Shown here one piece after another: positions 6,463 to 51,400 of a stretch of 56,379 nt of DNA (position 1 is its first letter; each line of letters begins with the position of its first letter). The DNA lies in the NCBI GenBank assembly GCA_016124425.1, contig WGNT01000088.1, forward strand, positions 1 to 56,379, written 5' to 3'. Both the position numbers and the translations under genes were made by a program. The notes below the pieces were generated by a model that worked only from the letters and a program-made list of their open reading frames with translations, was not told the origin of the DNA and did not search any database. This DNA is from Cytophagales bacterium. Lineage in GTDB: Bacteria; Bacteroidota; Bacteroidia; Cytophagales; Cyclobacteriaceae.

Positions 6463-6498
6463 GTGTTTATAATTGTTTTTAATCGGACACAAGGAATC
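6457..6498 (-). repeat. Leader element, copy A (at the start of the T9SS-substrate gene)
   Basis: On the minus strand this reads GATTCC, a short spacer, ATTAAAAA, then AATTATAAACACATGAAA, where ATG is the start codon of the large gene. The same arrangement occurs at 6567-6609 and, on the plus strand, at 17123-17185; the 18-nt block containing the ATG is identical in copies A and C. It may be a shared promoter or 5' untranslated region, or the trace of an old duplication. Confidence 0.6.
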
Positions 6499-6540
6499 TC
6501 GCAATTATAATTCATCCCTCCGTGCGTCACTTGAGTCATG

Positions 6541-30295: not shown

Positions 30296-31563
30296 GCCCC
30301 AACAATAATCTCTCGAATGCTGTCCTCGTTAAAGTACTTCTCACCAATCGCTTGGATTGCGCTTGGATCAAAATTTTTGATAAACTGCAACTGGTTTTCA
30401 TAATAATCATACCCTAGTCCCTGCAAATGTATTTTTTTAAACCGGCCCATTAGGTCAAATGGATTGCTGAACTGCGAAAGGAAATGGCCAATCATGTAAT
30501 TCCGGACCGTTTCCAATTCTTCCTTTCCTAGCGGACTTTGCGTTAGCAACTTGAGCTCTTTATACACCTCAATTAAGGTCGCCTCTGCAAACCCCTTTTT
30601 GATGTCAGCCAAAACCATCCAATAATCCGTCGAACTTAAGCTCCCCAAATAGCTCGATATACCATAGGTGTACCCCTTCTCCTCCCTGATATTTTTGATT
30701 AACCTACTCCCGAAATAGCCGCCAAGCGCTGTGTTAAAAACCGTAAGCGCATGGTAGTCCGGGTGTGATTTTGGTATAAGTATTTGGCCCATCCGAATAC
30801 TAGACTGCAGGGACGCCGGTCTTTCTTCATAGATTCTTTTGTCCGGGACCGGCTGGAAAATCCCCGAATTTCCACTATTTCCTTCGAAAGGCAGGCTGTC
30901 AAATTGAGTTTCTATATCCTGCATTTCCCTGTCAGAGAGGTTTCCTGTGACGAAGAGCTCCGGAAGTACACGGAAGCTGCCGTGGTAATAAGCTAAAATA
31001 TTATCCCGCAAAACTAAGTCTACGTGGGCTTCCTCCGATACATAGCCGAAAGGATGAAGTGCTCCGAATAGCGCTTTTCGGACTAGTTGGTTTGCCCGGG
31101 CTCCCGTTTGCTCCTGTTGGATAGCTATGGTGAGTTTTTTTTGAGATTTTCGCTTACTCAACTCTTTCTCCGGAAATGTGGCTTCCGTGAAAAGGGACCG
31201 AAATACCGGCAAAACCTCCCGAAAGTGTTTCTTAGTGGTCAACAGCGAAAGCCCCTGCTGTTCGTAACCCGAGACCACCTCTACCTCTGTCGCATAGTAG
31301 TCAAAAAAATCATCCAATGCATCAGAACTGAGGTCGTGTGTTCCCTCGAGAAGCATGTTTAGTGTGAAAAAGGGGATTAATCCTTCTTCGGGAACGTAGT
31401 TCGCCCTGTTGATGGGCATAATCACCTCCAACTTTACCACATCAAGGTGGGGCGTCGGAATAAAGTAAAGTGATACGCCGTTTTTTAATGTACGCTTAGT
31501 CGGCTCGGTAAGTAGTACCTGTTCGGGAATTTTAAATCCCGGAGGCATTGAACGATCTACCAT
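30292..31563 (-). CDS. M16-family (insulinase-like) protein lacking the zinc-binding motif
   Basis: Homologue of M16 zinc peptidases, which work as clamshells of one catalytic and one non-catalytic half. Here the HxxEH site is replaced: the segment IPFFTLNMLLEGTHDLSSDAL has Phe, Leu and Asn where His, Glu and His should be. The C-terminal half keeps the substrate-binding R/Y region (NIREEKGYTYGISSYLGS). It is therefore a subunit-B-like, probably inactive protein. 423 residues, no signal peptide. Its ATG overlaps the porV stop codon by one base, so it belongs to the pssA-porU-porV operon. A catalytic partner is not in this window. Confidence 0.88.
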   Translation of the reverse strand: MVDRSMPPGFKIPEQVLLTEPTKRTLKNGVSLYFIPTPHLDVVKLEVIMPINRANYVPEEGLIPFFTLNMLLEGTHDLSSDALDDFFDYYATEVEVVSGYEQQGLSLLTTKKHFREVLPVFRSLFTEATFPEKELSKRKSQKKLTIAIQQEQTGARANQLVRKALFGALHPFGYVSEEAHVDLVLRDNILAYYHGSFRVLPELFVTGNLSDREMQDIETQFDSLPFEGNSGNSGIFQPVPDKRIYEERPASLQSSIRMGQILIPKSHPDYHALTVFNTALGGYFGSRLIKNIREEKGYTYGISSYLGSLSSTDYWMVLADIKKGFAEATLIEVYKELKLLTQSPLGKEELETVRNYMIGHFLSQFSNPFDLMGRFKKIHLQGLGYDYYENQLQFIKNFDPSAIQAIGEKYFNEDSIREIIVGA

Positions 31564-32786
31564 TATTTAGTGATGTTGTAGGCAAGGGAAATCCGAAGCG
31601 TCTCTCCCATGGGGTGGTTTTGCACCTGGGGGACTAAATAGGAAAAATCTAAACCAAGACGGTCCTGTATCTTGAATCCTACTCCCATCGTAAAGAATCT
31701 ACGGCCCCCCTTTCGTGGGTTTTCGTAAAAATAACCTGCTCTAACGGCAAATTTGCTCTGATAATCGTATTCGACGCCAAAAGAAATCATTAATTCATCA
31801 AGTTCCTCTCTAAACCTTCCTGGCGTGGGTGCATCGGCAAAGGATCCAAACATACCGCTTAATAAGGGACGGGTAGGGTCTGCTCCAGAAAGGATACTTG
31901 GTCGGTTTGTTGTAGGATCGATGATGATCTGTCCGTTTTCATTCTCTTCATAAATTGGCGGTGTAGGTACCATCAATTTGTTGATATCCAAAGCGAAAGT
32001 GATGTTGTTGAAATTATCCATTGGGAGCTTTAGGGCTGTTCCGAAGCGGAAATTTGTCGGTAAGTAATCCAGGTCGTCGGCACTATTATAGGTGATTTTG
32101 GGGCCAATATTTGAAATATGGGCGCCCCAGGACCATACAGCCTCTTTACCGGAGACCAAGACATCGGTCTTATAATAAACGCCTACATCTGTACCAACGC
32201 TTACACCGGGCCTACTTTCATTACCGCCGGCTGAAGAAATGTTACCGGAGAGATTTGAATGTATAAACCGCGCTGAAATCCCCAATCCAAGTTTATCGGA
32301 AAGCTTTCTTGAGTAGGTACCTCCTATGGCTATGTCCCTAGGGTTAAAATCGCCTAGCGAATTTCCCGAAAGGTCAGTTAGCTGTATGGATCCCATATCA
32401 AAATACCTAAGGTCAATTCCAAAGGCAGATACATTGTCTATCCGCTTGAAGCCGGTCAAATAATTGACCGACATATCGTTCACCAATCTACCTAACCAAG
32501 GGGAATATGAAAACGAAACGCCCATATCCTCTTCTATAAAGGCGAGTTTCCCGGCATTCCAGTGGGCGGAATTCCCGTCTGCTGAGGTGGCTACCCCCGC
32601 ATCACCCATCCCCGAATGCCGGCTATCCGGCGCAAAATTGAGGAACGGTACAGCAGTAGTGATTACGCGGCGGTTCGGATCCTGACCATAAAGGGTAACG
32701 GAGTTTTGGGCGGATGTGGACGTATACCACAAAGACATGATAACGAAAAAAAATAGCTGCTTCATTATGTTAGTTGATGTTTTCAT
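31563..32786 (-). CDS. porV: Type IX secretion system outer-membrane protein PorV (LptO)
   Basis: Outer-membrane barrel of the FadL-like fold that binds the SprA channel, collects cargo through its C-terminal signal and delivers it to the PorU sortase. A signal sequence (LFFFVIMSLWYTSTSAQ) precedes a mature part starting TLYGQDPNRRVITTAVPFL, followed by the typical DSRHSGMGDAGVATSADGNSAHWN. The end (LGLDFSYLVPQ...GETLRISLAYN) is strand-rich. The ATG at 32786 overlaps the porU stop (ATGA), favouring that start; an ATG seven codons later is also possible. 407 residues matches known PorV. Confidence 0.95.
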   Translation of the reverse strand: MKTSTNIMKQLFFFVIMSLWYTSTSAQNSVTLYGQDPNRRVITTAVPFLNFAPDSRHSGMGDAGVATSADGNSAHWNAGKLAFIEEDMGVSFSYSPWLGRLVNDMSVNYLTGFKRIDNVSAFGIDLRYFDMGSIQLTDLSGNSLGDFNPRDIAIGGTYSRKLSDKLGLGISARFIHSNLSGNISSAGGNESRPGVSVGTDVGVYYKTDVLVSGKEAVWSWGAHISNIGPKITYNSADDLDYLPTNFRFGTALKLPMDNFNNITFALDINKLMVPTPPIYEENENGQIIIDPTTNRPSILSGADPTRPLLSGMFGSFADAPTPGRFREELDELMISFGVEYDYQSKFAVRAGYFYENPRKGGRRFFTMGVGFKIQDRLGLDFSYLVPQVQNHPMGETLRISLAYNITK

Positions 32787-35700
32787 CGAATAATAATTTT
32801 TCCTCCCATCTGATCTTTGGCTCCATCCTCCTCAGAAAGAAGTTCTAAATGGTAAATATACGTTCCTTTTACTGGATATTTTGTTTTGTCTTGTAAAAAA
32901 ATCCAGTCCAATCCCCGAATGGAAGGTTGGGCATTTGGGAAACGGTTTTCCGTTGAAAATATTTCACGACCGCTGACGGAATAGACCGTTAATTTAACAA
33001 AGATATTCTCTCCAGCTCTGTTATGGGTAACTGTAAAGCTGCTTTGATTGATCGCCGGGTTAGGATAGGCCGTTAGGGAGAGAATACGAAGTTCTTCAGA
33101 GCCCGCAACTTCTATGTTTTTCGCAAATACAGATCGGTTACCTTGGTTATCGAACGCTATTACCTGAACACTGTTTATACCTTCCCTAAGTTCGGTTAAT
33201 GTTACTTTTACATAGCCCGACTGGTAGGTTCCACTTACTGCCCTGAATAGGTCGTTCAAGGTGATTTCTTCTCCTTCATTTACCTTGAACCGAAGGTTTT
33301 GACCGATGTTTGTGGGTGAAATGTTGATACCGGAGGCGTCGTTGAATGTAAGTATGACGGGCAGCCTAACGGAAGAATGTACCGAAGCCAAAGGTGTGCT
33401 GTCACTTGCATAAATGCCAATCTCCGGTCCAGTAGTATCAGAAAGGGGATCGGCATAACTCCCTCCTATGGGGACTTTACTTGCTCCCAACGCTTCCTTT
33501 GCGAGCTTAGGATCAGTGGCGAAAACCCGGAATATGCCTTCGCCAATAGCATAGTCTATGTTTTTCCCTACGATCATTTCACCCTCGAATTTCCCGTCCT
33601 TTACCTTCCCCGAGCCCCGATGAATAAACATGTTTGTTTGCAGAAAATTGGTCTGTATACTCTCATCTCCCAGCGTCTCCAAAAAAGTTGGTTTGTCAAA
33701 AAGACTAACTGCATAATCACCGTTAAAACTGGGGATTAGTGCTCCGGTATTCGGATCCGTAATTTCTCCCGAATACCGTATTCGTTGTAAGGCCTGCAAC
33801 GTATCCACGCTGACTTCCGTTTGTATGTCGGTGAACAATTGGTTGCCGAGTCCATACTCAGGAAGGTTGAGCGTAAGAGAAGGGTCCCCAAGCAAACTGA
33901 AATTCCTGTTCAGAGGACCGTTAAGGCTGTTGTTTTTCGTAATCCGAAAGATTTCGCCCAAGGTGAGGTAGTTCCCGTCTCTACGTAGTAAGGCGGCTTC
34001 AAAGAATGCTTTGTTTAACTCAAAGTTAATGCTGCTAAAAACCGGCCTGCCGGTTGTGAGTAGTGCAATCGCGCCTTTGCGCCTTCCAAAAAGCAACTCT
34101 TCTGCACCAGATCGGATAAAGGGGCTGTCATGTCTGCCGAATTCACAGGTAGCGGTCACGAAAAGGGCGAGTCTGTCATTTTCTTGCCAGTCTGCCAAAT
34201 CGGCGCTTACCCACAACCGCTCCGCGGCAAGGGTGGTTTCGTTACCGTGACCTATATAATTGATGATTAGTCCCCCTTTGGCCACCCACTCCGCGATACC
34301 TTCCTTGACACTTGGGCTCAGTTGGGAATTTCCGGTGTTGATCTGTTCGTAATGATCTAGATACAGCTTATCGAGGGTGAATTCAGGATGCTGTTTTTGC
34401 AAAAATGCGGCATGGGTTTCCGCATCTCGAAGGTGAATGTTATTGTCCCCATCGTCTGCAAGAAGCATGATTCGGCTTTTCCACTCGCCTTTTGTGTTGG
34501 CCGTCGTTGCGTACCGAATTATTTTATCTACAGCCTCAGTTGCCTCCCGCACATTTACTGCCGGGATTCGGCCGATACCGATTTGCAGTTGGTGATCTCC
34601 GGCGTTATTTTCATCCCACTCGCCATCCCCGATCGCTAAGAATCCAAAATAGTCGTCTGAACTATAACTCGTTAGTGGGTTTAGGCTGCTTCTTGAACTA
34701 TAGGTTGGGATGAGGTTTGGCTGTCCCTGTGTTATGTGTTTGTAGTCATAGGTCCCTTTGCCAAAAAAGAGCACATTGTTAAGTACCTTACCTTGATGGA
34801 ATTGGTCGGCAAAGTAGTTCCTGAATGCGGTAATATCCCGCGAACCATATCCGTGGGCATCGTAAAGTTGTGGAGGCGTGACTACCAACGTGGACATTCC
34901 CCTGTTTCGCTTGAACGCCGCCAAGCGATTTGCCTGTTGTAGAAAAGCCGGTGAAGATACTATTATAAATTCAGGATAATTACTTAGCGCTTTAAGGCCA
35001 ATATCCGCTACCGTGGGATCGTCTATTGAAGGGATTTGCGTCGGATCAAACAACGCAACTTTCCATGTGTCTGCTTTTAGCCACTTTGTTTGGGTCTTAT
35101 CCAAGGGGTTATGGCTATTGCTTACATCCCATACCTGAACGGTAGAGGGAAGAGAAAGCATGGTTTCGGATTGAGATCCGGGATAGCGATACAGGACTTG
35201 GTTCCGCAGCATCTCCACATCGGATGGAATACCAACAATGGCGTGTTTTAGATACCCCGTAGCATTTCTGTCGGCACTGGAGAAATTAAAAGTTAGGGAA
35301 ACGTTACTCGTATTGCTGGTAGTAGGAGAGAAGATGAAACTTCCTTCGCGGCCTTTGATTCCATAGGTGCTGTTAGGGATGGATGCAAGTATAAGGGATG
35401 CGGAAGGGTTTTGATCCACCGTAAGTTCGAATGTGCAATCGCTCAGCGACTGAGCCATTACTTCAACATTCACATACGAGCGGCCAACTGAGAATCCTGC
35501 TGGTTTTTTTATGGAGATGGAGAATTGCTGTCCACCCAAAACACGGTGGCCATACCAATTTCTTCCGGACCCTAGCAAGTTAGTTGTTTCCTGCTTATAG
35601 GACTGCATCATCAACCAGGGCTCTTCATCCGTCGGTTTTTCGTGCGTCTCAGTTGATGCTGTGGGTTCAGGAGTAATCCTTAACGGATTTTGATGATTTC

Positions 35701-36088
35701 CCTGGATAAGGTAGTAAATTGTATCCGTATAGGTATGTGGTCTAAAGATATAGTTATCGTCAGTAGGAACAATTTGATCAGCCGTAGAGAGAAAGACAAA
35801 CAAATCACCGTTCAACTCCATGGCCGGAAGCTCCTTCCAATCCATAAAAGATGTATCTAATTTTTGATCAAGCATACCGGGCTGACCGAAAATACCGATT
35901 CCTGAGATCCCTCCCAATCCCCAAGTAGATGCCTGCGCAGCTGTTATTTTATAAACCCCTTCCTCTGTAACTGGAAACTTCAGTGTTGGAGATTGGGCAA
36001 CGACTGCAAAAGATAGCCCAAGCCAGAGGCATCCAATCAAAAGCCAAGTGTTATGTGGGACTTCCATTGTCGGCAAATGCGTTGTCAA
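32783..36088 (-). CDS. porU: Type IX secretion system sortase PorU
   Basis: Gingipain-like (C25) cysteine protease on the cell surface that removes the C-terminal signal of T9SS cargo and attaches the cargo to A-LPS-type lipid. A hydrophobic signal segment (residues 14-31) ends at VVAQ. The N-terminal beta-rich part precedes the catalytic domain with H614 in YIGHGNETTLA and C648 in VTATCEFGRHDSP. The C-terminus (AYPNPAINQSSFTVTH, VYSVSGREIF, GGKIIIR) is itself a sorting-type domain, which PorU keeps. Start at 36088 or 36067; either overlaps pssA. 1101 residues fits. Confidence 0.95.
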   Translation of the reverse strand: MTTHLPTMEVPHNTWLLIGCLWLGLSFAVVAQSPTLKFPVTEEGVYKITAAQASTWGLGGISGIGIFGQPGMLDQKLDTSFMDWKELPAMELNGDLFVFLSTADQIVPTDDNYIFRPHTYTDTIYYLIQGNHQNPLRITPEPTASTETHEKPTDEEPWLMMQSYKQETTNLLGSGRNWYGHRVLGGQQFSISIKKPAGFSVGRSYVNVEVMAQSLSDCTFELTVDQNPSASLILASIPNSTYGIKGREGSFIFSPTTSNTSNVSLTFNFSSADRNATGYLKHAIVGIPSDVEMLRNQVLYRYPGSQSETMLSLPSTVQVWDVSNSHNPLDKTQTKWLKADTWKVALFDPTQIPSIDDPTVADIGLKALSNYPEFIIVSSPAFLQQANRLAAFKRNRGMSTLVVTPPQLYDAHGYGSRDITAFRNYFADQFHQGKVLNNVLFFGKGTYDYKHITQGQPNLIPTYSSRSSLNPLTSYSSDDYFGFLAIGDGEWDENNAGDHQLQIGIGRIPAVNVREATEAVDKIIRYATTANTKGEWKSRIMLLADDGDNNIHLRDAETHAAFLQKQHPEFTLDKLYLDHYEQINTGNSQLSPSVKEGIAEWVAKGGLIINYIGHGNETTLAAERLWVSADLADWQENDRLALFVTATCEFGRHDSPFIRSGAEELLFGRRKGAIALLTTGRPVFSSINFELNKAFFEAALLRRDGNYLTLGEIFRITKNNSLNGPLNRNFSLLGDPSLTLNLPEYGLGNQLFTDIQTEVSVDTLQALQRIRYSGEITDPNTGALIPSFNGDYAVSLFDKPTFLETLGDESIQTNFLQTNMFIHRGSGKVKDGKFEGEMIVGKNIDYAIGEGIFRVFATDPKLAKEALGASKVPIGGSYADPLSDTTGPEIGIYASDSTPLASVHSSVRLPVILTFNDASGINISPTNIGQNLRFKVNEGEEITLNDLFRAVSGTYQSGYVKVTLTELREGINSVQVIAFDNQGNRSVFAKNIEVAGSEELRILSLTAYPNPAINQSSFTVTHNRAGENIFVKLTVYSVSGREIFSTENRFPNAQPSIRGLDWIFLQDKTKYPVKGTYIYHLELLSEEDGAKDQMGGKIIIR

Positions 36089-36755
36089 CTAAGGATAATA
36101 GGATGTAGGCAAGGATGGTAAAGACAATTCCCCCCAATCCGAAAAGCACTATACTAAGCCCCCCGCATCCAAGTATCAAGTACCTAAATAGGTTCTTTTT
36201 GAAATCGAAGCTCTTGAACTTAAGTGCTATCAACGGCAATTCGGCCGTTAGGAGCCATGCGAACAAGACTGTTAAGAATAATAGTCCTGCTGTACTCGCG
36301 GTGATAGTTGCTACCCCGGGCACCGCGATGGAAAGATGGGGAAGGGCTGTAAAGAAAAGCGCGTTAGCAGGTGTGGGAAGCCCAATGAACCGGTCCGTTT
36401 GGCGGGTATCAATGTTAAATTTTGCCAACCGAACAGCCGACTGAACACCAATCAGGAACGCCACAAAGGGGAGGTAAGTGAACTCTCCGCCCTGATGGAT
36501 TAGCTTGAACACGACAAAAGTAGGTAAAACTCCAAAAGTAACTAGGTCTGCCAACGAGTCAAGCTGTTTTCCGAGTTCACTGTATGCCTGCATTGTTCGG
36601 GCCAAAAATCCGTCAAGAAAATCAAACACTGCCGCTAGGATGACAAAGTAAACTGCCAAAAGCACCCTGCCTTCTAGGACATAAAATATCCCAGCCATGC
36701 CAGTTATAAGATTGAGGCAGGTAATTACATTTGGAATATGCTGTCTTATGTTCAA
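36051..36755 (-). CDS. pssA: CDP-diacylglycerol--serine O-phosphatidyltransferase
   Basis: Integral membrane enzyme making phosphatidylserine, precursor of phosphatidylethanolamine. The CDP-alcohol phosphatidyltransferase motif D-G-x2-A-R-x8-G-x3-D-x3-D is present in DFLDGFLARTMQAYSELG followed by KQLDSLADLVTFG. Six to eight hydrophobic segments; 234 residues is normal. It begins in an ATGA overlap with the upstream MBL gene, and its end overlaps porU, so membrane lipid synthesis is encoded on the same message as the T9SS sortase. Confidence 0.95.
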   Translation of the reverse strand: MNIRQHIPNVITCLNLITGMAGIFYVLEGRVLLAVYFVILAAVFDFLDGFLARTMQAYSELGKQLDSLADLVTFGVLPTFVVFKLIHQGGEFTYLPFVAFLIGVQSAVRLAKFNIDTRQTDRFIGLPTPANALFFTALPHLSIAVPGVATITASTAGLLFLTVLFAWLLTAELPLIALKFKSFDFKKNLFRYLILGCGGLSIVLFGLGGIVFTILAYILLSLVDNAFADNGSPT

Positions 36756-37402
36756 AGTCTCGCGTTTTTACCAACAAATGGGTTGTACAATTTTTCCTCA
36801 CCAATAGTTGTGGCGGGCCCATGTCCTGGATGCACCACCGCATCATCAGGCAGAGAAAACATTCGTTCCCGAATGGAAGTCAAAAGTGTGTGGCTATCCC
36901 CTCCTGGAAGATCCGTACGCCCTACACTTCCCTGAAATAACGTGTCTCCACCGATACAAGTTTTTGTATCGCGATGGAAAAACACCACATGGCCAGGTGA
37001 ATGACCCGGTACGAAAATGGTTTCTAACTTTTGATTCCCAAACGTCACTACCTCGCCATCGGCAATGTAGTGGTCGGCGGAGGAGTCCTGATACTGCGGG
37101 AAGCCATAATTGCTTGCATATGTAGGAACGGCGCGTAAAATCTGTTCTTCAAGTTTGTGGTGCCAAAGAGGAATATCAAAGGAACTTTTTACAAAGGCAT
37201 TGCCAAGTACATGGTCTATGTGACAATGGGTGTTGAGTAATTTCACCGGAGTGAGCCCTTGTGTTTTCAAAAAATCCAATAACTCCATTCGCTCCTGCTT
37301 TGTATGGCAGCCGGGGTCGATAATGACTGCTTTCTTGGTTTCATCAAAAAGCACGTAGGTGTTCTCCATGAATGGGTTAAACGTAAAAGTTTTGAGCTGC
37401 AT
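36752..37402 (-). CDS. MBL-fold metallo-hydrolase (glyoxalase II-like)
   Basis: Cytosolic binuclear-metal hydrolase of the YcbL/glyoxalase-II-like group, possibly hydrolysing thioesters. All metal motifs are present: NTHCHIDHVLGN (HxHxDH), VPGHSPGHVVF, GGDTLFQGSVGRTDLPGGD and HPGHGPATTIGEE. 216 residues is standard. It is the first gene of the pssA-porU-porV operon, its stop overlapping the pssA start by 4 bp. The short divergent region to the FAD oxidoreductase gene must hold the operon promoter, which I cannot place with confidence. Confidence 0.9.
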   Translation of the reverse strand: MQLKTFTFNPFMENTYVLFDETKKAVIIDPGCHTKQERMELLDFLKTQGLTPVKLLNTHCHIDHVLGNAFVKSSFDIPLWHHKLEEQILRAVPTYASNYGFPQYQDSSADHYIADGEVVTFGNQKLETIFVPGHSPGHVVFFHRDTKTCIGGDTLFQGSVGRTDLPGGDSHTLLTSIRERMFSLPDDAVVHPGHGPATTIGEEKLYNPFVGKNARL

Positions 37403-37457
37403 CTGTCAAAGGTTTTTATTTTAATTCAAAATAACGAATAACTATTTAATTTTGGGC

Positions 37458-38510
37458 ATGGAAGTAGATTTTTTACTCATTGGTCAGGGGCTGGCGGGAA
37501 CGGTATTATCCCATCGTCTTATTAGTAACGGGTATCGGGTACATTTGGTAGATTTACCGCAGGCAACGGGCAGTTCCCGAGTTGCTGCGGGGTTGTACAA
37601 CCCCGTCACGGGAAGAAAAATGGTAAAGACTTGGGAAGCTGACACACTATTTCCGGAGATTGAACCGTTTTATAAATCATTGGAGAAGTTATTGGGGATC
37701 AGCTGCCTCTACTCCCTGCCGATATACCGTCCGTTTGTCACGATAGAAGAGCAAAACGAATGGATGGGTAACAGCAGCAGGCCTGAATTCCTCACCTACA
37801 TCGCCTCCATCGCTACCAAAGCCAAGTTGGATTATGTACATGATCCACACGGGGGCGTGGAGTTGAGGAAATCGGGATACCTAGACCTGGTCGCCCTACT
37901 TGACCGCTATGCGGATTGGTTGAGAGGGGGTCATCGGCTTACTAACTCCCATTACGATGAAAAACTGCTTCAGCTGACTGCTTCAGGTGTAATATATGGA
38001 GGGATTGAGGCGAGTGCCGTTATCTATACCAATGGGATAGCAGCAAAGGAAAGTATGTACTTTTCTTGGCTCCCTTTTTCGCCGGTAAAAGGGGAAATTC
38101 TGACGTTGAAAATGCCTATACAGTCAAACAAAATTATAAATAGGGGAGTTTTCCTTATTCCGTTGCCGGACGGCTCGTACAAAGTGGGTTCTACCTATGA
38201 TAACGTGGATATCTTCTCCGGGAATACCGAAAAGGGCAGGGCAGAAATATTGGAAAAATTGGGCAATCTTATACCTAGACCAGTAGAAGCAATTATTGGG
38301 CAACAGTGGGGAATCCGTCCTGCGACCAAAGACCGGAAACCCTTTTTGGGAAGGCACCCTGTTCATCGCCAAGTGTTCGTATTCAATGGATTTGGAGCCA
38401 AAGGAGTTTCTCTTGCTCCCTATTTTAGCATAGAGATGCTAAATTTAGTAACTTTAGGGAAGGAACCTCAAAAAGCGGTAAACATAAACCGTTTTTTTAA
38501 GTATATTTAA
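37458..38510 (+). CDS. FAD-dependent oxidoreductase (DAO family)
   Basis: Flavoenzyme of the D-amino-acid-oxidase/glycine-oxidase fold; substrate unknown. The dinucleotide-binding motif is FLLIGQGLAGTVLSHRL, followed by VHLVDLP and a family block AAGLYNPVTGRKMVKTW. Near the end come WGIRPATKDRKPFLG and FNGFGAKGVSLAPY, which close the FAD site. The ATG at 37458 is chosen (350 residues), placing the GxGxxG at residue 8; an in-frame TTG two codons earlier is unlikely. A TAATTTTG lies only 3 nt before this ATG. It is 28 bp from the next gene. Confidence 0.85.
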   Translation: MEVDFLLIGQGLAGTVLSHRLISNGYRVHLVDLPQATGSSRVAAGLYNPVTGRKMVKTWEADTLFPEIEPFYKSLEKLLGISCLYSLPIYRPFVTIEEQNEWMGNSSRPEFLTYIASIATKAKLDYVHDPHGGVELRKSGYLDLVALLDRYADWLRGGHRLTNSHYDEKLLQLTASGVIYGGIEASAVIYTNGIAAKESMYFSWLPFSPVKGEILTLKMPIQSNKIINRGVFLIPLPDGSYKVGSTYDNVDIFSGNTEKGRAEILEKLGNLIPRPVEAIIGQQWGIRPATKDRKPFLGRHPVHRQVFVFNGFGAKGVSLAPYFSIEMLNLVTLGKEPQKAVNINRFFKYI

Positions 38511-38538: not shown

Positions 38539-41500
38539 ATGAAAATTAGATTTCTAGCCCTTATTTGGTTTGTTATATGCTTGGCTTGGACGAATTCAAC
38601 ACAAGCTCAATTCGACCAAGAGAGATTTGGTAAAAACAGAATACAGTATAAGAATAAGGAGTGGTATCTGTTCAGTTCAAATAATTTCGAGGTTTACTAT
38701 TATGATGGTGGATTGACCAACGCAAGGCTTGCTATTGACTTTCTAGAGAGCGAGTTTGATCGGCTTACCCAGACCGCCGGGTATGTCGCCTATACCAAGC
38801 CAAAGATTTTTATTTATAACTCCCACCAGCAAATGCTGGAAAGTAATCTCAACATAAATAAAAACAACTATACCATAGACGGTCAGACCTTTTTTTCCAA
38901 ATTGCTTGCAGAGGTTCCCTATACCGGCTCCTGGGAATCGTTTAAAAACGAACTACTCTATCAGACTTCGAAGATCATTGTTGAGGAGATGTTGTATGGC
39001 TCAAGTATTTCTGATGCCTTCCAGTCAAATTTGATCAATAATTTCCCCGATTGGTTTATAGATGGAGCAGCCCGTTATATGGCTTATGGGTGGGATCTTG
39101 AAATGGATGATTTTATAAGACATTATCTCAAAGACAACGAAAACCCCAAACTCCATAAGTTAAGTAAAGAAGAAGCAGCCCTTGTGGGCCAATCCATCTG
39201 GAACTTTATTGTAGAACGTTTCGGTAAAAGATATATTTCCAGTGTTCTCAACCTCAGTAGGATTAACAGAAACGAGGAAAATAGCATCGCCAATACCTTA
39301 GGAAGAAGGTTTAAGGATTTCACTACTGAATGGCGTTCCTTCTATACGGAACTTAACAAACCCGTTTTAAGTACCTTCAAAGATTACAACGAAAGCAACG
39401 TCATTGCGGCCTCTTCAAAATCAAAGTATGGAGCGATTAACACGGTGAGGTTTAGTCCGGATGGAAAAAATTTGGCCTATGTGGTCAATAATAACGGGAA
39501 ATACAGGGTATTTATACGTGATCTAAGTACCAAAAGGGAGCGTGTGATATTTAAAGGAGGCTATTCATCTTTTGATCAACGCGCTGATTTTTCTACTCCA
39601 GCTATTGCTTGGAAAGATACGTTAAACCTTGTGTTAGCTGGGTTTACCCGTGGAGTTACTACCATACGTATGCGTGCAATCGATGGAAGCTCGCAGGATA
39701 AGATTTTTCTACGAAACCTAACCCAAATACTAGATCTCAATTTTGCGCCAAACGGACGGACGATGGTGCTTTCTGCAATGTCAAACGGTAGAACAGATAT
39801 CTATAGTCTGAACATGAGGGGGCAGGGGAGAAGGTTAACGAACGACATCTTTGACAACAGGACGCCTGTTTTTTTGAATGATTCAACAATTATCTATGCG
39901 TCAAACAAGGCAGATTTGGCCGATAGCCTTTTGACAGGAAATGTGGACGTGAACAATTTGCCGGATTATTATAACCTGTTTAAGTTGGACCTCGGCGATT
40001 CATTGACCTTTACGCGGTTAACCAATGTAAACCACGTCAACATCCAACCAAGAAGGCTCAACAGCACCACAGTACTTCACCTTAGCGAGCAGAGTGGAAT
40101 TATGAATGTGATGCGATTTAGTCTTGGAAACATGGTAAGTAGCCAGGTATCCGCCTTCAATCGTAGCCTGGAAAGCTTTGATTACACATTAAGTGGCAAC
40201 AAATGGGCGTATTCCATTCGAGAAGGAAACCGAAGCAAACTGATCCTGGAAACCTTTCCTAATTTGGACCAGTTTACCCCAAGCACGCCTAGGTTGCAAA
40301 TTCAACAGGCCAAAAAGCTAAATGAACGGATTTCTACGAGAAGAATCCAACGGGAAACCGGAGAAGATGGGGAGAATGAAAGCTCGGAAGAATCTAGTAC
40401 TCCTTCGGAAGCAACTAATCCCGAGACTGTTAACGCGGCGCAAGAAGCTAGTGAACTCCCCGAAAGAAGTGCCCCTGTTGATTTGACTACGGTACCAGCT
40501 GATACCACGATTACCGGTGTGAATTTAGAAAGTTTGCTGATCGGCGGAAACAGTCCCCGTACCGGACAGCCTCAAGCGCAAACGCCTCCCGTCATTTCAA
40601 CGCCCGAAACGATTAGTGATACCATTCCTGCTACCGGGATGACAGGATCTATTAGCTTGGACAGGCTGCGTTTTGAACGGGAAGGTGGCATAGATACCGA
40701 TAACTATACTTTTGATACAGTCCCGAGCCCGCTTTTGCAAATGCAGCAGGCTAGCCCGCAGCAGGCCCAACAACCCACCGGTAGAAGCAATATTTTGGAC
40801 GCTTTCCGACAGCAAACAATGATAAAGCGTGTAACGGGTCCTATAAAGTATACGCCCTTATTCACGACGACAAGTCTCAACACGACCTTCGGCATAGACC
40901 CACTCAGAGGGTTTTCGATCAATCTTACGGGGAAAATGAATGATTTGCTTGATAATCATTCGGTGAGAGGAGGTATTTTGGCGGCTTTGGATTTTAGATC
41001 GGGAAGTGATGTGTTTTTCGAATATGAATACCTTAAAAGCAGAATTGATGTTCGGGGAAGATTTGATAGAAGATCAATAACCCGCGATGAAGGAGACTTA
41101 ACCTTTCAAAAGTATGTACTCACAAAGACGGAGCTGGGTATTTCTTATCCGTTATCGGTGAGTACACGAGTAAGCATTCAGCCATTTGTGGCAAAAACGC
41201 AGTATTTCAATTTAAATCCTGATTCTGTGTTACGTGGAGAGGACGCACGTCAGAATCGTTTTGACGTGAATTACGCCGGCGGAAAGGCCGAAGTCGTGAT
41301 CGATAAGACCAGGTTGCTGGGTTTGTACATGGAACAAGGGTTCAAAGGAAAGGTTGGTGTAGTCCATTATCAGGGACTTAATGCGTCAGAGCGTTCCTTT
41401 AGCAATTTCTTTTTAGATATGCGGAATTATCAGAAGGTACACAAGAATATTACGTTTGCCACCAGGATATTCGCAGGAAGTTTTTTCGGGAATAATCCCC

Positions 41501-42039
41501 AAAAGTACCTAGTAGGAGGGATGGACAATTGGTTATTCAATCAGTTTCACCAACCTCCAAGCAATAGACCGGAGGTTTCTCCCGTAAGAAATGCGGCCGG
41601 AGTAGAAAATTCAAATTTGTTGTTTGCTGAATTTGTTGACCTTAGAGGATATGATTATGACGAAATTCGGGGAAATAACGTGATAACCTTTTCTTCGGAA
41701 TTACGCATCCCGCTATTTGCCTATCTTTCTCGTGGAAATATTACATCCAATTTTATAAGGAACTTTCAACTCGTTGGATTTTATGATGCAGGATCTTCAT
41801 GGTCCAACTCCGCACCTTGGGAGCGGGTGAATGACCAGAATACTGAAGTAATTCGTACCGAAGGATCTCCATTCGTGATAACGCTCAATAATTTCAACAA
41901 CCCTTGGTTACAAAGTTACGGGGCCGGCGTGAGAACTGTCTTGCTAAATTATTATGTCAAGTTTGATGCTGCTAGGCCAATCAGAAACTACTCAATTGAG
42001 AAAACAAGGTTTTATGTTACCTTAGGATACAATTTTTAA
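38539..42039 (+). CDS. Outer-membrane protein: degenerate MA-peptidase-like domain, beta-propeller and Omp85-like barrel
   Basis: Not matched to a characterised protein. Signal peptide 1-23 (cleavage after STQA). Residues ~40-275 resemble the peptidase-MA-like fold but lack HExxH: the helix reads LLYQTSKIIVEEML, and PDWFIDGAARYMAYG sits where active members have a WFxEGxAEY. Residues ~295-585 hold TolB/WD40-like propeller repeats (VRFSPDGKNLAYV, LNFAPNGRTMVLSAM). A low-complexity Ser/Thr/Pro/Gln linker spans ~590-755. The rest is a barrel with Omp85-like end features: LRGY (1035-1038), ELRIPLFAYL, FYDAGSSW (1081-1088) and a terminal Phe. Followed 17 bp later by yicC. Confidence 0.7.
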   Translation: MKIRFLALIWFVICLAWTNSTQAQFDQERFGKNRIQYKNKEWYLFSSNNFEVYYYDGGLTNARLAIDFLESEFDRLTQTAGYVAYTKPKIFIYNSHQQMLESNLNINKNNYTIDGQTFFSKLLAEVPYTGSWESFKNELLYQTSKIIVEEMLYGSSISDAFQSNLINNFPDWFIDGAARYMAYGWDLEMDDFIRHYLKDNENPKLHKLSKEEAALVGQSIWNFIVERFGKRYISSVLNLSRINRNEENSIANTLGRRFKDFTTEWRSFYTELNKPVLSTFKDYNESNVIAASSKSKYGAINTVRFSPDGKNLAYVVNNNGKYRVFIRDLSTKRERVIFKGGYSSFDQRADFSTPAIAWKDTLNLVLAGFTRGVTTIRMRAIDGSSQDKIFLRNLTQILDLNFAPNGRTMVLSAMSNGRTDIYSLNMRGQGRRLTNDIFDNRTPVFLNDSTIIYASNKADLADSLLTGNVDVNNLPDYYNLFKLDLGDSLTFTRLTNVNHVNIQPRRLNSTTVLHLSEQSGIMNVMRFSLGNMVSSQVSAFNRSLESFDYTLSGNKWAYSIREGNRSKLILETFPNLDQFTPSTPRLQIQQAKKLNERISTRRIQRETGEDGENESSEESSTPSEATNPETVNAAQEASELPERSAPVDLTTVPADTTITGVNLESLLIGGNSPRTGQPQAQTPPVISTPETISDTIPATGMTGSISLDRLRFEREGGIDTDNYTFDTVPSPLLQMQQASPQQAQQPTGRSNILDAFRQQTMIKRVTGPIKYTPLFTTTSLNTTFGIDPLRGFSINLTGKMNDLLDNHSVRGGILAALDFRSGSDVFFEYEYLKSRIDVRGRFDRRSITRDEGDLTFQKYVLTKTELGISYPLSVSTRVSIQPFVAKTQYFNLNPDSVLRGEDARQNRFDVNYAGGKAEVVIDKTRLLGLYMEQGFKGKVGVVHYQGLNASERSFSNFFLDMRNYQKVHKNITFATRIFAGSFFGNNPQKYLVGGMDNWLFNQFHQPPSNRPEVSPVRNAAGVENSNLLFAEFVDLRGYDYDEIRGNNVITFSSELRIPLFAYLSRGNITSNFIRNFQLVGFYDAGSSWSNSAPWERVNDQNTEVIRTEGSPFVITLNNFNNPWLQSYGAGVRTVLLNYYVKFDAARPIRNYSIEKTRFYVTLGYNF

Positions 42040-42056: not shown

Positions 42057-42935
42057 ATGATAAAATCAATGACTGGTTACGGTGTAGCAAACTTAGAAAA
42101 TGACCAATATATAATAAATGCAGAAGTTAAGACGCTAAATTCGAAGTTTTTAGACCTAAGTTTAAAATATCCCCGTCAATTTGCTGACAAGGAGATTGAA
42201 ATCCGCAATCTGATAGCAGACCGGCTTGAGAGGGGAAAGGTAAACTTAACCCTTGACTTTAGCACAAAATCTTATGATCAGTTGCCTGTCGAGATAAATG
42301 AGACCTTATTTAAAAAATACCTAGATACCTACAGAACGTTGGCAAGCGAAGTGGGGGAGTCTATTCCTGACTTGTTCAAACTCGTCCTGCAATCCCCCAA
42401 TGTATCTGTCACGACGACAGAAAAAGCCCAACAACCGGAAGAATGGGAAGCTGTACGTGAAGTGCTGCTCAGGGCTGTTGATAACTGTCTCGAGTACCGG
42501 AGAGAAGAGGGGGCAGCACTTTTAGAAAAATTCAAGGAAAATCTGCAACTATTAAGTCAGGCGCTGAATAACATCAAGGAAGTAGAACCGACTCGTAAGG
42601 AAAAGATCAAGGAGAAAATTAGAAACCACTTTTCAGAGTGGATGGAGGAGCATGATTTTGATCAGAACAGATTTGAACAGGAATTAATTTACTATTTTGA
42701 GAAGCTGGATATCACAGAGGAGATGGTTAGACTCGAGACTCACCTCAATTATTTCCAGAAGGTACTAGTATCTGGGGAATCTCAGGGTAAAAAACTCGGC
42801 TTTATCGCCCAAGAAATAGGCCGGGAAATAAACACAATTGGTTCTAAGGCCAATGATGTAACCATCCAACAATTCGTTATTCAAATGAAAGATGAGTTGG
42901 AAAAAATCAAAGAACAATCCTTTAACATATTGTAA
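42057..42935 (+). CDS. YicC/YloC family endoribonuclease
   Basis: Conserved cytosolic protein; E. coli YicC and B. subtilis YloC have been described as endoribonucleases. The N-terminus MIKSMTGYGVANLE and the block AEVKTLNSKFLDLSLKYPR are diagnostic. The C-terminus has DITEEMVRLETHLNYF, then GKKLGFIAQEIGREINTIGSKAND, the most conserved part. 292 residues is standard. It lies 17 bp after the large outer-membrane gene and is probably co-transcribed. It converges on DUF2237 with only one base between stop codons. Confidence 0.95.
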   Translation: MIKSMTGYGVANLENDQYIINAEVKTLNSKFLDLSLKYPRQFADKEIEIRNLIADRLERGKVNLTLDFSTKSYDQLPVEINETLFKKYLDTYRTLASEVGESIPDLFKLVLQSPNVSVTTTEKAQQPEEWEAVREVLLRAVDNCLEYRREEGAALLEKFKENLQLLSQALNNIKEVEPTRKEKIKEKIRNHFSEWMEEHDFDQNRFEQELIYYFEKLDITEEMVRLETHLNYFQKVLVSGESQGKKLGFIAQEIGREINTIGSKANDVTIQQFVIQMKDELEKIKEQSFNIL

Positions 42936-45436: not shown

Positions 45437-48400
45437 TTATTGACTCAAATTAAATGTTAATTGCCCACCAAAAGCAGTGGAACTTCTTCTAAAGGCAGTG
45501 GAGACTTTGGGGTCATTAATCGTTCTGTCAAAATAGAACTGAATATTCAGTTTTTGGTTTATCACATAGCCTATACTCGGACGTAGCTGTACGTTGAGAT
45601 TTCCGTTAGTAAGGGTGTTTATCTCTTCAATCTTGCGCTGTATGGTACGTGTATCTACGATACGGGTTGATAAACGTATGGTTAGGTCATTGCTTAATAC
45701 TTCCTGCCTTCCCTGGATTTTGAAGGGCACTTTCACACCGGCTTTTGTATACCCTAGATCGAATCTAAAATCTTGGCTGTTTTGTTCTGTTACCTGGGCA
45801 TTGGAGAAGTTAAGGCCAATTGTCCGCTCTGTATTGTATTCAAAACTGATATTCATTCTATCTTTAGTCAGGAGATCCACGCCTATCAGAGGTGAGAAGC
45901 CTTCTCTAATGACGACCTGATTCAAGATGAAAATGGGAATGTATGCACCGAATTCATCCGTTAAGCTAGCGTTAGGAATATCCTGAAGTCTGTTGTACAG
46001 TTCCAATCCATTTTGGTACAGCAGGGAATTTGAGAAATTGCTGGCATCATACGTAGACGTATAGTTATGGGTAATATTTATCGACGAGAAGTACTCCTGT
46101 AATGCAGGCAGCTTCGATAGCCCACGATACTCAAGGCGCCAATTGGGTAAAGGTAGCCTAGGGAAAGGATTTAGCGATACATCTGTGGGTGACTGACCGG
46201 AATACGCCGCGAGAAAGGCTGGAATAAGCACACTTTGGCCATTGATATTGTAAGCTCCACCAGGATTTGTCGTTTCTAATCGGCTCTGAATAATTTGACG
46301 GTATCGTTCAAAATTCTGGAATAGCGGAGAGTTGTTTTGGGCATCGTCTTTAGCTGTTGCGGTACGAATCATGTTGTAGCTGATGCTATACGCCCCCATC
46401 CTGTTCGGATTGACTGATGTGTAATTCTCAGATCCTGGTCCCTCTCTGCGGAATATTTCGCTGTATTCGCCATTTTCCCGTTTCTTTACCTCTAGCGTGA
46501 TTCTGAAATCCTTAATCGGCTCTATAATTGATGCAAGCTGTAGGTTCTCTACCCGGTTTTGCCGGAAGCTCTGCGTCAGTTGCGTACTTCCTGCTAACAT
46601 TCCCCTATTGGCCAAGTCGAAGCGGATCTGATCGTTCTGACTGCCAAAAACAAAGTCCAAACCGGGGTTCATAAAGCTTTGGTCCATACCTAATAAACCC
46701 GAATTCTGAAGGTAACCTGGAAGGAAGGTTCCCTGCGTGATCTGGTACCTGAAGTTAACTTCTTTGATCATCATCATAAAGCGCAGGATATTCGCCATAG
46801 CACCTTCTGTAACAGGCTGTTTTTCTTCCTCACCTTGTGGGGCTTGTACCTGTGGTCTTCCTGGTATAGAAGGTCTTTTGGGGGCGTTCAATGCGTTCAA
46901 CCGCTTACTTTTGTTGTAAAGACGGATAAAATCCAATTTTCCGTTCAAGGTCCTGTCTCGTGTATTCTGGATTACGTTTCCCAGCGTATCCCTTTGTCCA
47001 AGGGCGCCGGTGATCCAGCCGTAACTTACTTCGTAGCGGGCGTCGACTTTTATCCAGTCAGCAAACGGGATTTTATCCAACGGTAATGAATAATTGACCA
47101 CTCCTTGGTGGGAATAATTGGTTGTCCTTCCCAGCGACCGGATATTTGCCCGCAATGAGTCTATCTTAGCTTCTGAATCCAAATTGCCCTCCGGTTCGTC
47201 GACGATGGCATTTACACTGGAATTAAAATCGACGGAAAGATTTTTTGTTAAATCCCAGTTTAAGCTATAAAACCGGTTGATATAGAAGCTTTTCTGAAAT
47301 AACGTTTCAACACCTACTGTAGTGAGCTGGTCATTCCTGTTTTGAGTCCGCATGAACCTTCGATCTACGTCAATTCTGGCTGATAGGAGCGAAGGGGCAA
47401 AATTAAAATTCAAATCTTTTATCAATTGCAAATACTTCCCATCCAGAAACGCAACGTTTTTAAATGGCTCTACTTCGAGCGGGTTCGGTTGGAAGCTGTA
47501 GGCGGCACTTCCTCTATAGGTCTCAAAAGTATAGTCGGCCAATTGTATGTTACTTTGTTTCACGGATCCATAAGCGTAGGAAACTGAAAAATTCTCCAAA
47601 TCATACACCCTATTGGTTTCTTTTTCCGGTTTTCTGATTTTTCGTAAGTTGTTCACACTGAAGTTTTTTCGTTTTGATTGGTCCAAAACGAGGCTTCTGT
47701 AGTTATCCCGCTCCGAACCAGAATTGAATTTCTGCAATGCTACTTCGAAGGGCACATCGGGATTGAGGGGATCGAACTCCGGCCTTGTGCTTGAGTTCTC
47801 AATACTCATATACACTGGAATACTCAGCCCTAGCCCCTTTGGCAAAATTTTGTCCACGCTGATGTTGGCGGACACATCGTATTGTGTTGTAGACTCGCGG
47901 GCCCGTTCGGATAGCCTGGTTTCCAGTCCTCCAAACCCGAATGTATTGTGGCGGATAGAACTGGAAATCACTGCGACATCAGCAATTTGTGCGTTGAGAC
48001 GGGCATTGGCCGCCCATCCAGACGATTTATTGAAGTCAGTCACGCGAAGTTCATTAGCCCAAAGACAAACAGACTTGCTTGCCCCTCCGGAACTTCCAGG
48101 GTTGCGGATTCCAATCATCATCCCTTGGATAAAATTCAATTCTGGCCTACCTACAACCGTGACCCTGTATTGTCGGATCTGCACGGAATAGGCCAGATTT
48201 TGGGGTCGTTGGTTGTTGTCCCTTTCTGATTTTACACCCACGATCTCATCAAGCGCGATATCTATTTCATTTTCTAGCGGCCAAATTTGCCGTGGATCGC
48301 GGGTCCCTGGTGGTGTCATGAATAACGGCACCTCTATTTCATAATAGTTGTCAGTATAGTCTGTACCCATTCGAAGAAAGGCCTTTAGTTCTCCATCCTG

Positions 48401-51400
48401 TGTGTCTACGCTGTTTGCATGTAAAAACATCTTCATGCGACCATACTGCACCAGATCCTGACTTACGTTTTTAAACACCGCCCTGGAATCGCGGGTTTGT
48501 AGATTATCTACGCATAGGCGCAACGATTGCTCGTTTAACTGACGCTCTACTGTAGAGGTATTGTCTCTGTCTCTGAATATACCAGGAGGAAGTACATAGG
48601 GGCTTTGGTTTTCTCCTCCTTGTCCGTTTTCCTCTATATTCACGACACCTACCGTAAAGTTTGAATTATCCGGTTCCGGTATTTCTGCGAAACCGCGTTC
48701 GAAAAGAGACTCTTGGAATATTCGCCATTGACTTCCAACCAATCTGAAATTACCCATTCGAAGCACTACAGGTTGTTGAAAATCAGTAAGATAAGTACGA
48801 ATGAATCGAATCGATTTGAACCCTGAGATACTCCCGTAGGTTCTGTCCGGCTGTCGTACGGGAATACGGAAAAGGTACCAATTGACTTCTTCCCCGTTAC
48901 TGACATCGGTGGTTTGGTCTACAATGTAATTCTGGCCGACCCGCATTCCTGCTGGATTCAAGTCTATTTCGTATTCGTAGTAACTTTCGTTTTCGTTGAT
49001 TGTATTGTCGTTGTTTAAGTCTTCATTATCAGGGATATTCGATCCGGAGGGAGTGTAGGGCAGATTTGTATTTGATGTTATGGGTGTATTGCCATCCATG
49101 CCGTTGAAGCGTTTGTAGCGTTCCAAGGTCTTAATGTCATTTTGGTCAAATTCAGGATCCAAGTAATACTGAAAGTCATCTTCGGAGGGGTCTGACTGAA
49201 TACCTTGCAAAACCTGAGGCGGCACATTCAGTCTGTTTAGAAAGCGATCTGCGAAATAGCTTCGTTCATCCTCATTTTTCAGTCCATCTAACCCTACGTC
49301 TTGATGCTCACGGGCTTCGGGAGAATTGTCGAATGCGGGTGTTAGGAACTGCTGATTCGTTACTCTCCCCCATTCGTTTTCGGTAGTTCGATCTACTGCC
49401 CCGTCATCTGGTAGGCCGTTTTCAAAGGCGTGGCGGCTGTCTTTCATGACATCCTCAGATATCTCTCCTAGGTTAAACAGTAGTTTACCCCCAGTGGTAT
49501 TATTTTCATTGAAGATCCCATCGAGTACCCGGCCATTTTCACCTGTAAGGAAGGGATCCATAAGCCAAAACTCGATATACTCGATATTGGTGCGGTCAAA
49601 ATCAACTTCAGAAGTAATGGCACGCGTGACAGCACCGAAGTTCTGTCGGGGATTTGGCAATAGTCCTGTTGACGTCAGGTTTGGGTTGTAATTATACATC
49701 CCCCTTTCGTGGGGGTAGAATGCCATATCAAAAAGCGGCTCAGGGGTGAGAAGGACGTCTCTGTTTCTGCCTTGGTAGATTTCCTGTGGAAGAACCCGTC
49801 GCACATAGTGGTTTCGCCGGTCATCATTGGTGATGTTGGGGGGTACCCCAGTTCCCGATGCCCGAAAGAAAACATTGTCTATGGTATACCAAGCCAATTT
49901 TGCACGTCGGTAAGCGTTTCCCAACCTGTCTTCCGTCTGCATACTCAGGTCGAAGCGGTTGTCATCTGTGGCCGGAGTAGCGCCGAGTTTCCACGTCTGA
50001 GGCGATGAACCCAAATTGAAGGGAATGATGGCTGTCTCAAAATCATCGATGTAAGAGGTGCCTTCTCCATCTACCTGATTAGACGTGCCGGGAATCAGGT
50101 GGGCAAATTCCCCACTAAACTGGATCAGTGATGTTTCTTTCGTTTCGGTAAAAGGAAGGGCATCAGCTAATTTGGTCAAAAAAAGCGACTCTTCGCTATA
50201 GTTCATATCCACCCCCCATAGACTGTTTCTGAGCGTTTCATTCCCGGTTCCGATGCGGGAAATGTTCGGTCGTTCGTTTAAGTATAGAAACGTGCCGCCG
50301 ATATTGAAATTTTCGTTAAATAAATAGTCAAACCGGGTTCCTAAGAGGCTTCTTGTCTGGAAGGAAACCAAATCTGCCTTTTCGAAACTGATGCTTATCC
50401 GCTTACCTGATTGGAGAATGCCTTCATTTATGATGACGACTCGCCCTATGTTGTAATCTACCGTATAATCCACGCCTTCCGTGAGCGGGATATTGCCCGC
50501 GGTCACCAACACGGATCCTTCGGATATATTCAGTCCCGGGAGCATTATTTCTGAGGCCGAACCTGCCGTATAGGTTCCTTTTAGAAAATACTTGTTCAGT
50601 CTCGTTACTAACTCAGCATCAGCGAGTGTGGTACGATAGAGCGTGTCATACACATATTTGTCGACAAGGTTTGCCTCACTTGGGAGAAACTTACTTTCGA
50701 GGGTATTACCAAATGGCTCAAGCACTGGAAACATGACAAGGCCCTGTTCGGGTCGTATGGTAAGGCCCCGGACAAAATCAAAGTTTCCATCAGGCTGGGG
50801 GTCGTTTTGTGGATTAAGGTTGTCAAGTTGCAGTAAACGGATCAAAGGAACATCTTTAACCTGTTGTCCTTCTAGCAAGCTCGGGTTGTCCAAGCCTGTG
50901 CGGTCATCCCTATAGATAATCTGCAACTGAAAACCTTCTTGTTTGATTTGGTTTGCGTTCAGATTATAAATGTTTTTCATCATCAGATCCCAAGTCGGTA
51001 CCCGGGTGTTTATCTTAGCAGGCCGAAGCAGTTTGAGAAAGATAACATCGCTCTCCGGACGGTTTTGATAATCTTCTGAAAGTTCACCGACTTTGTATGA
51101 CTGGCCATTGTAGGTGTATTCGTAAGATACCGCTATGACTTCGTCATTCTGCAGTTTCCGAAAGAGTGAAAAATAACCGAGTTCCCGGTTGAAAGTAAAT
51201 TCGTTTTCCTCTAATCGGCGGGCACCGTTTATCTGCTCGAAATCCGTTCCTCTTTCGATCCCAAGATCGTTTGCGATAGCCGTAGAGGCTTGCTCAAACG
51301 AGCGGAAACTGGGATTGCTCCTTAGGACGTCATATAACCTATTTGCACTGTTAGCTGCAGGTGATTGGGGATTTCCTGGACCTATATTGGGATTTTCTGG

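Follow-up and report, generated by a model that had tools for sequence, protein, structure and literature searches.

The 56,379-nucleotide stretch of DNA analysed here, called the window throughout, is contig WGNT01000088.1 of a Cytophagales bacterium (assembly GCA_016124425.1). An open reading frame (ORF) on its forward strand, whole at 38539..42039 and opening with ATG, encodes 1166 residues whose predicted domain architecture, set against a published description, identifies the product as an outer-membrane WD40-Omp85 protein. The function proposed for it is in outer-membrane assembly or quality control: anchored in that membrane, the protein would use its periplasmic head to bind client proteins without cutting them, a reading to which we assign a probability of roughly one half. 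Comparison and structure prediction support the architecture itself: an Omp85-type barrel with RG(Y/F) in its L6 loop, a TolB-type propeller, and a gluzincin-fold head that has no zinc site. The fusion of propeller and barrel has been known since 2014; the new elements are the wide distribution, the change of the head from protease to non-protease, and the preservation of a motif in the linker. The surprising points are that the pseudoprotease is class-wide, that the gene is nearly as universal as BamA within its order, that its carriers are nested within the genomes bearing SprA, the outer-membrane translocon of the type IX secretion system (T9SS), and that the linker has a motif at all.

The WD40-Omp85 subfamily was named in 2014 by Heinz and Lithgow, who likened it to a fusion of BamA and BamB (PMC4104836), so a novel fusion is ruled out. 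The published proteins and the present one share an N-terminal WD40 or TolB-like propeller, a C-terminal Omp85 barrel and the lack of POTRA domains, whereas the available sections of that account mention no peptidase-like head, zinc-site loss, linker motif or nesting within SprA-bearing genomes (PMC4104836). According to the same sections, the conservation of Omp85 subfamilies stops at the genus except for BamA, TamA and Lipo (PMC4104836), unlike the type described here, which is found across the phylum. In the open-licence literature searched, the term 'WD40-Omp85' was not met beyond this paper. The TamL account, in its available part, mentions no propeller (PMC12045153).

A full-length AlphaFold2 model was built from 53 sequences, with a mean predicted local distance difference test score (pLDDT) of 69.8 and a predicted template modelling score of 0.67. 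Along the forward strand, the chain comprises a signal-peptide-like helix (residues 1-24, 38539..38610; helix 2-16 in the model, judged by eye), the head (25-284, 38611..39390), the propeller (286-574, 39394..40260), a disordered linker (579-761, 40273..40821) and the barrel (766-1166, 40834..42036). Sixteen barrel strands extend from residue 775 to residue 1164 by our assignment from the DSSP list, in which the short elements 766-770, 925-927, 1099-1106 and 1113-1119 are counted as outside the barrel. In structural alignment with VIA-align, which was also used for the TolB propeller, the top match of the barrel is F. johnsoniae BamA 9n2d (Z 22.5, root-mean-square deviation 3.9, 301 residues, 14% identity), and TamA 8us4 reaches Z 20.9. 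Foldseek on the whole model returns TolB and BamA structures interleaved, from E 2.7e-9. The original prediction, made from the sequence alone, had proposed a C-terminal Omp85-like barrel carrying LRGY and had suggested structure prediction with a fold search; both were run, and they matched an Omp85 barrel (BamA, TamA) and a TolB propeller.

The LRGY motif (residues 1035-1038, 41641-41652) is placed in a long loop between strands 11 and 12 (985-1046, 41491..41676), the position of L6, parts of which are predicted with pLDDT under 50. Its conservation across homologues, which had been offered as a check, was found: Arg1036 is present in 55/55 and Gly1037 in 54/55 aligned orthologues, and there is almost no variation in the RG(Y/F) of L6 or in the ELRxP and DxG that the final strands carry. 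Further comparisons used named loci, a set of 79 drawn mostly from Cyclobacteriaceae with flanks of up to 10 kb, some cut short, and with 66 loci over 21 kb. One alignment of these contains the window protein and 52 of the 78 other named loci, and another the window protein and 51; L131, a 975-residue frame, was excluded. The protein shares the Omp85 barrel fold and LRGY in L6 with the BamA of Bacteroidota, as described in the available part of PMC12611786. It differs in having no POTRA domains, since in the model the head, propeller and disordered linker precede the barrel. The genome's own BamA (L153) is encoded by a separate gene for 905 residues and was named from its size, its PF01103 match and its order-wide conservation.

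Sequence relationships of the barrel were assessed by profile-profile comparison with hhalign, which here gives pairwise E-values from shallow profiles. The barrel aligns with that of an HExxH-bearing paralogue in the same genome at 99.3% over 302 columns, with L152, a protein of that genome called TamL-like by eye, at 87.8% (E 3.4e-6, 161 columns), and with its own BamA at 41.7% (E 2.7e-4, 89 columns), LRGY falling on the LRGY of BamA. As a yardstick, the same comparison gives only 25% (E 7.7e-4) for BamA and L152, both Omp85 by PF01103, while the negative controls give E 0.86 for residues 30-504 of BamA, which stand for its POTRA part, and E 0.22 for the protein's own propeller. The Pfam/NCBIfam scan placed no Omp85 or peptidase family above its cut-off on the window protein. 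PF01103 was found at 11 places in the genome, with the HExxH paralogue among them above cut-off. Two orthologues from other classes, L250 and L233, pass the cut-offs of Peptidase_MA_2, PD40 and Omp85 in one chain (for L250, 50.8 bits for Peptidase_MA_2 and 35.8 bits for Omp85). The PF01103 cut-off is passed by 2/4 scanned orthologues, as L247 passes only Peptidase_MA_2 and PD40 and the source-class orthologue L221 matches no Pfam family at E 0.01. At the level of sequence, homology to Omp85 barrels is indicated indirectly, by way of the paralogue, L152, BamA and the orthologues.

The propeller, which had been expected in residues 295-585, is identified by several methods. The Pfam/NCBIfam scan gives a PD40 match above cut-off (6.9e-6), and the TolB model TIGR02800 matches at 6.3e-11, its 41.8 bits lying far short of the equivalog cut-off of 343.15. 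A sequence search of the PDB matches TolB at residues 304-457, the AlphaFold2 model has propeller strands from 288 to 572, and TolB 1crz aligns with a root-mean-square deviation of 2.9 over 237 residues. Matches to SHOCT_2 and CueP on the window protein were below threshold and were set aside. The likeness to TolB is one of propeller fold (Z 23.7). TolB has its own N-terminal domain before its propeller; in the window protein, the gluzincin-fold head stands at that position. The proposal that the propeller resembles BamB was not sustained: the BamB model TIGR03300 found eight weak places genome-wide, none above cut-off and none on this gene, and TolB structures top the fold list. BamB homology is rejected on the absence of a TIGR03300 match on the gene.

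A TolB-type propeller could also belong to a static outer-membrane anchor or scaffold, in which the barrel would tether the propeller and the dead head, for example in a Tol-Pal-like or peptidoglycan-side arrangement. It is in keeping with this that the TolB model finds nothing above cut-off in the source genome, which is 88.57% complete. However, the near-invariant L6 RG(Y/F), ELRxP and DxG exceed the needs of a tether, and we consider such a role very unlikely.

The head was also modelled alone, from 52 sequences (pLDDT 79.4). It aligns with collagenase 8jt1 (Z 13.6) and with the M30 peptidase Lugdulysin 7bb8 (Z 13.5), and among the best 50 matches listed the head matches are collagenases, M30 and M1 aminopeptidases, at Z 10.8-13.6; Foldseek on the head is weak, with a best E of 6.4e-4. 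By sequence, the MXAN_6640_HExxH model matches residues 167-286 at 0.056, and hhalign aligns the head with that of the HExxH paralogue at 99.7% over 237 columns. The fold is that of a gluzincin and the zinc ligands are absent, in agreement with the earlier proposal of a peptidase-like head without HExxH. At the site of the lost motif (residues 141-145, 38959..38973), Y141, Q142 and K145 replace the H, E and H of other-class orthologues. R179 (39073..39075) occupies the place of the third ligand, which is E in 30/30 other-class orthologues.

The history of this site was traced in a tree of 72 proteins, computed with a quick method and midpoint rooting. The 14 rows from the source order and 11 further rows from its class form one clade (SH-aLRT 100) in which HExxH occurs in 0/25, and none of the 79 named-locus frames contains it. 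All 30 other-class tree rows have HExxH, which for L254 lies upstream of an alternative start; in the corresponding columns, H, E and H stand in 29/29 rows with letters there, and the third Glu in every row. The zinc-ligand columns of source-class rows are scattered in residue: the third-ligand Glu is present in 2/11 rows of the class that lie beyond the order, and H or E survives at the first two zinc-site columns in single rows of the order. HExxH is also present in 17/17 rows of the paralogue type and is typical of the Peptidase MA family at large, so it is likely to be the ancestral state. Because the class rows without it form one clade and the other-class rows all possess it, these sequences point to a single loss of the zinc site, in the ancestor of the source-class proteins, with the head being kept. 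Within the order, mean pairwise identity is 49% for the head, 43% for the barrel, 33% for the propeller and 25% for the linker. The head is therefore under constraint, as even after the loss of its site it is still conserved like the barrel and is the best-kept domain. This conservation suggests that the head has kept a function for which its surface or fold is required. A decaying gene was considered and rejected, since the listed order-level matches have no internal stops (those of G031 and G015 being split in two) and the head is constrained. The orthologue in G031 (L026, G031:C1:5182581-5185888) is split into frames of 792 and 340 residues, by a frameshift or an assembly error.

The genome's HExxH paralogue, here called the H-type (G000:C51:1189-4281, or L158:690-3782; 1031 residues), has its HExxH intact and PF01103 above cut-off. 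It has the same three-part order and aligns by hhalign at 99.3-99.9% per domain, the propeller reaching 99.9%. It differs in keeping HExxH, in its short linker (median 51 residues, n=17) without the motif, and in belonging to a separate clade. Strong H-type matches occur in only 10/59 order genomes, the source genome included. A further HExxH protein of broadly similar type, with the motif HE[LM]VHVF and a length of 940-1044 residues, was seen in some genomes from other classes, G128, G192, G223 and G270 (L280, L281, L282 and L269).

The low-complexity linker noticed in the original prediction is disordered in the model (pLDDT under 50), and its length is 183 residues instead of the suggested 165 or so. 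In linkers that are otherwise unalignable, the pattern [IVL][DN]xxx[YF]xF recurs; its form in the window protein is IDTDNYTF (residues 718-725, 40690..40713). The pattern was chosen after inspecting the sequences, so that the counts are descriptive and partly post hoc: it is present in 14/14 order, 20/30 other-class, 1/11 rest-of-class and 0/17 paralogue-type linkers, whereas 500 shuffles of each set yielded no more than 2. A stricter pattern finds 14/14 order rows and no other row. The T-containing form is found in 77/78 named-locus rows, other-class forms are often IDFRNYVF-like, and class linkers outside the order bear other F-rich stretches.

A possible parallel is BamP, which likewise presents a disordered segment with conserved residues beside an Omp85 barrel; BamP, however, is a protein of its own, and it is into BamA that its loop enters (PMC12611786, in its available part). 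That part of the paper confines BamP to Flavobacteriaceae (PMC12611786), which probably corresponds to the family f25 lineage without the window gene. From these seemingly exclusive distributions and the proximity of an Omp85 barrel, it may be conjectured that the linker is a counterpart of the BamP loop. The same authors expect other Bacteroidota to possess either alternative darobactin resistance or unrecognised BamP counterparts (PMC12611786, same part). The linker of the window protein could be viewed in the light of that expectation.

The gene had been suggested to be particular to its lineage, which its distribution contradicts. In the source order, a match at E<=1e-3 is found in 58/59 genomes, the source genome included, that in G049 only through the HExxH paralogue. 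An orthologue is present in 57/59 order genomes, compared with 58/59 for BamA (at E 1e-60). In a sample of the phylum, 174/296 genomes carry this type, which rules out a lineage-restricted novelty. The line of E < 1e-40 used to define the type was chosen, and 40 representatives across it all fall outside the paralogue-type clade. In the first scoring, two candidates per genome were scored and 172 carriers were found. Rescoring then took in every one of the 56 SprA-positive genomes that had no strong match, together with 7 others, while 61/68 SprA-negative genomes were kept at the first scoring; in G079, G137, G262, G313 and G333 it covered only 17 of the candidates. Two carriers were gained in this way, G128 (E 4.4e-118) and G338, where one frame lies in three pieces. 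A single-protein query of a viral collection found no relative.

SprA (TIGR04189) is above cut-off in 228/296 genomes, among them all 174 carriers; 54 genomes have SprA without the type, and 68 have neither. This nesting would be expected if, in Bacteroidota that are not of the Flavobacterium type, the protein were an assembly factor dedicated to SprA or to PorV-type barrels of the T9SS, since the type is absent from all 68 genomes without SprA above cut-off. Fisher's test gives p 8e-33 on the 172/0/56/68 table, in which the genomes are not independent. At least 59/68 double negatives come from family f35, and 5 more have no family shown; consequently, independent events of co-absence are few. 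G324, in family f23, lacks both genes (its SprA match of 9.3e-4 is under cut-off), while nine other sampled members of f23 have both, and the order member G057 also lacks both. These two look like the only apparent separate co-losses, and G049, which has SprA without the type, looks like a counter-example. The association is further limited by the 54 SprA genomes without the type and by the first scoring of only two candidates per genome, with 7/68 SprA-negatives rescored.

The genomic context bears on the same question. As stated in the original prediction, the gene lies between porU/porV and sprA, all three neighbours being above curated model cut-offs: porV at 31563-32786 (NF033710, 475.8 bits), porU at 32783-36088 (NF033707, 1043.3 bits) and sprA at 45437-52603 (TIGR04189, 2463.8 bits), each on the reverse strand. 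PorV is present in 71/79 and SprA in 56/79 named loci, and porUV also lies near the gene in the order genome G222 (family f13). A wider comparison of 20 loci (8 from the class, 2 from the order and 10 from other classes, about 8 kb on each side, searched by tblastn with window proteins) found the porUV/sprA neighbourhood in 0/18 loci outside the order, nor was it found in the order genome G304. An ancient T9SS gene cluster unit is therefore not supported. The suggested co-occurrence with sprA and porV stands as nesting within SprA genomes and as order-level context; it fails in the 54 SprA genomes without the gene and in the neighbourhood outside the order. From context and co-occurrence a T9SS-specific role is possible, and a dedicated assembly factor for SprA or PorV-type barrels seems unlikely. 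In the same loci, an MBL-type hydrolase (identified by eye; 36752-37402 in the window) adjoins the gene in 6/8 class loci outside the order, which supports orthology there. Its linkage to the gene outlasts that of porUV or sprA. Elsewhere in the window, a T9SS type B sorting domain scores above cut-off in the 939-residue product of ORF 3685-6504.

Another explanation is that the protein exports proteins or lipoproteins, with the barrel passing substrates to the surface in the manner of FhaC or Slam and the head and propeller selecting them. Export is also performed by Omp85 barrels (PMC4104836, in the sections available), and the crossing of surface lipoproteins in Bacteroidota is described as an open question in the available part of PMC12578637. 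However, no dedicated partner gene was seen near the gene. The conserved neighbours on the forward strand, an FAD-dependent oxidoreductase upstream (37452..38510; Pfam DAO, 5e-26) and a YicC-like endoribonuclease downstream (42057..42935), are cytoplasmic-type enzymes, and an exporter appears unlikely. The endoribonuclease is found in 74/79 named loci, and the oxidoreductase directly upstream travels with the Omp85 gene in 79/79.

In the assembly or quality-control role favoured here, the N-terminus of the barrel would, like that of other Omp85 proteins, face the periplasm, where the head and propeller would hang on the long flexible linker. In PlpD, according to the available part of its description, the N-terminal domain is periplasmic (PMC11116518). 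The propeller could provide a docking surface for other envelope proteins. Sister-class heads, which appear protease-like by their motif, would cleave outer-membrane clients that have stalled, in the manner of BepA of E. coli, whereas the source-class head would bind clients uncut and hand them to the barrel or to the beta-barrel assembly machinery (BAM). The linker motif may act as a short stretch that binds or beta-augments either the barrel of the same protein or a partner, and SprA and other large outer-membrane proteins of the T9SS are plausible clients. In the proposed parallel with BepA, the BAM-linked M48 protease, the assembly of outer-membrane proteins would likewise be served by a domain of zinc-protease type; the parallel is a working analogy, and BepA differs in being separate and in having a functional active site (PMC13067283, in its available part). 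A far-reaching and highly speculative extension would make the protein a second, unrecognised one-chain assembly machine of barrel, docking propeller and client-binding pseudoprotease that arose from a protease, dedicated to giant T9SS barrels like SprA in many Bacteroidota of non-Flavobacterium type, with the linker motif plugging the barrel seam within the same molecule, much as BamP does on BamA.

Several observations weigh against a general assembly role. Of the 54 SprA genomes without the type, 36 (29 from f25, 6 from f24 and 1 from f27) were rescored and yielded no match better than 3.5e-9, in the propeller stretch only, so that the protein is dispensable to the T9SS in these three families. 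(Eight of the remaining 18 were examined, and all eight have HExxH paralogue-type proteins.) The window protein itself has no PF01103 match, either in the Pfam scan or in the search of its own genome, and its barrel aligns with a second protein called TamL-like by eye, L154, at only 3.4% (E 0.013, hhalign). The available part of the F. johnsoniae BAM account names no such subunit (PMC12611786). That of the account for Bacteroides and Porphyromonas names none either, and there the BAM propeller is a surface lipoprotein, BamI, in a different arrangement (PMC12578637). Such barrels need not be insertases: PlpD is said, in the part of its description available, to differ from other characterised Omp85 proteins (PMC11116518).

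All 29 sampled genomes of family f25 are without the gene, and they include the Flavobacterium-like G079. The SprA of G079 scores 4521 bits against PDB 6h3i, a structure which we take to be from F. johnsoniae, compared with 1228 bits for the SprA of the window. F. johnsoniae itself probably lacks the gene. Genetics in this Flavobacterium-like family may consequently have been unable to find it.

How very large barrels and lipoprotein complexes are built in the outer membrane of Bacteroidota is an open question, and the BAM structures of 2025 come from Flavobacterium, Bacteroides and Porphyromonas. The apparent single switch from a protease-like to a pseudoprotease head across a whole class would provide a natural experiment on the job of the head.

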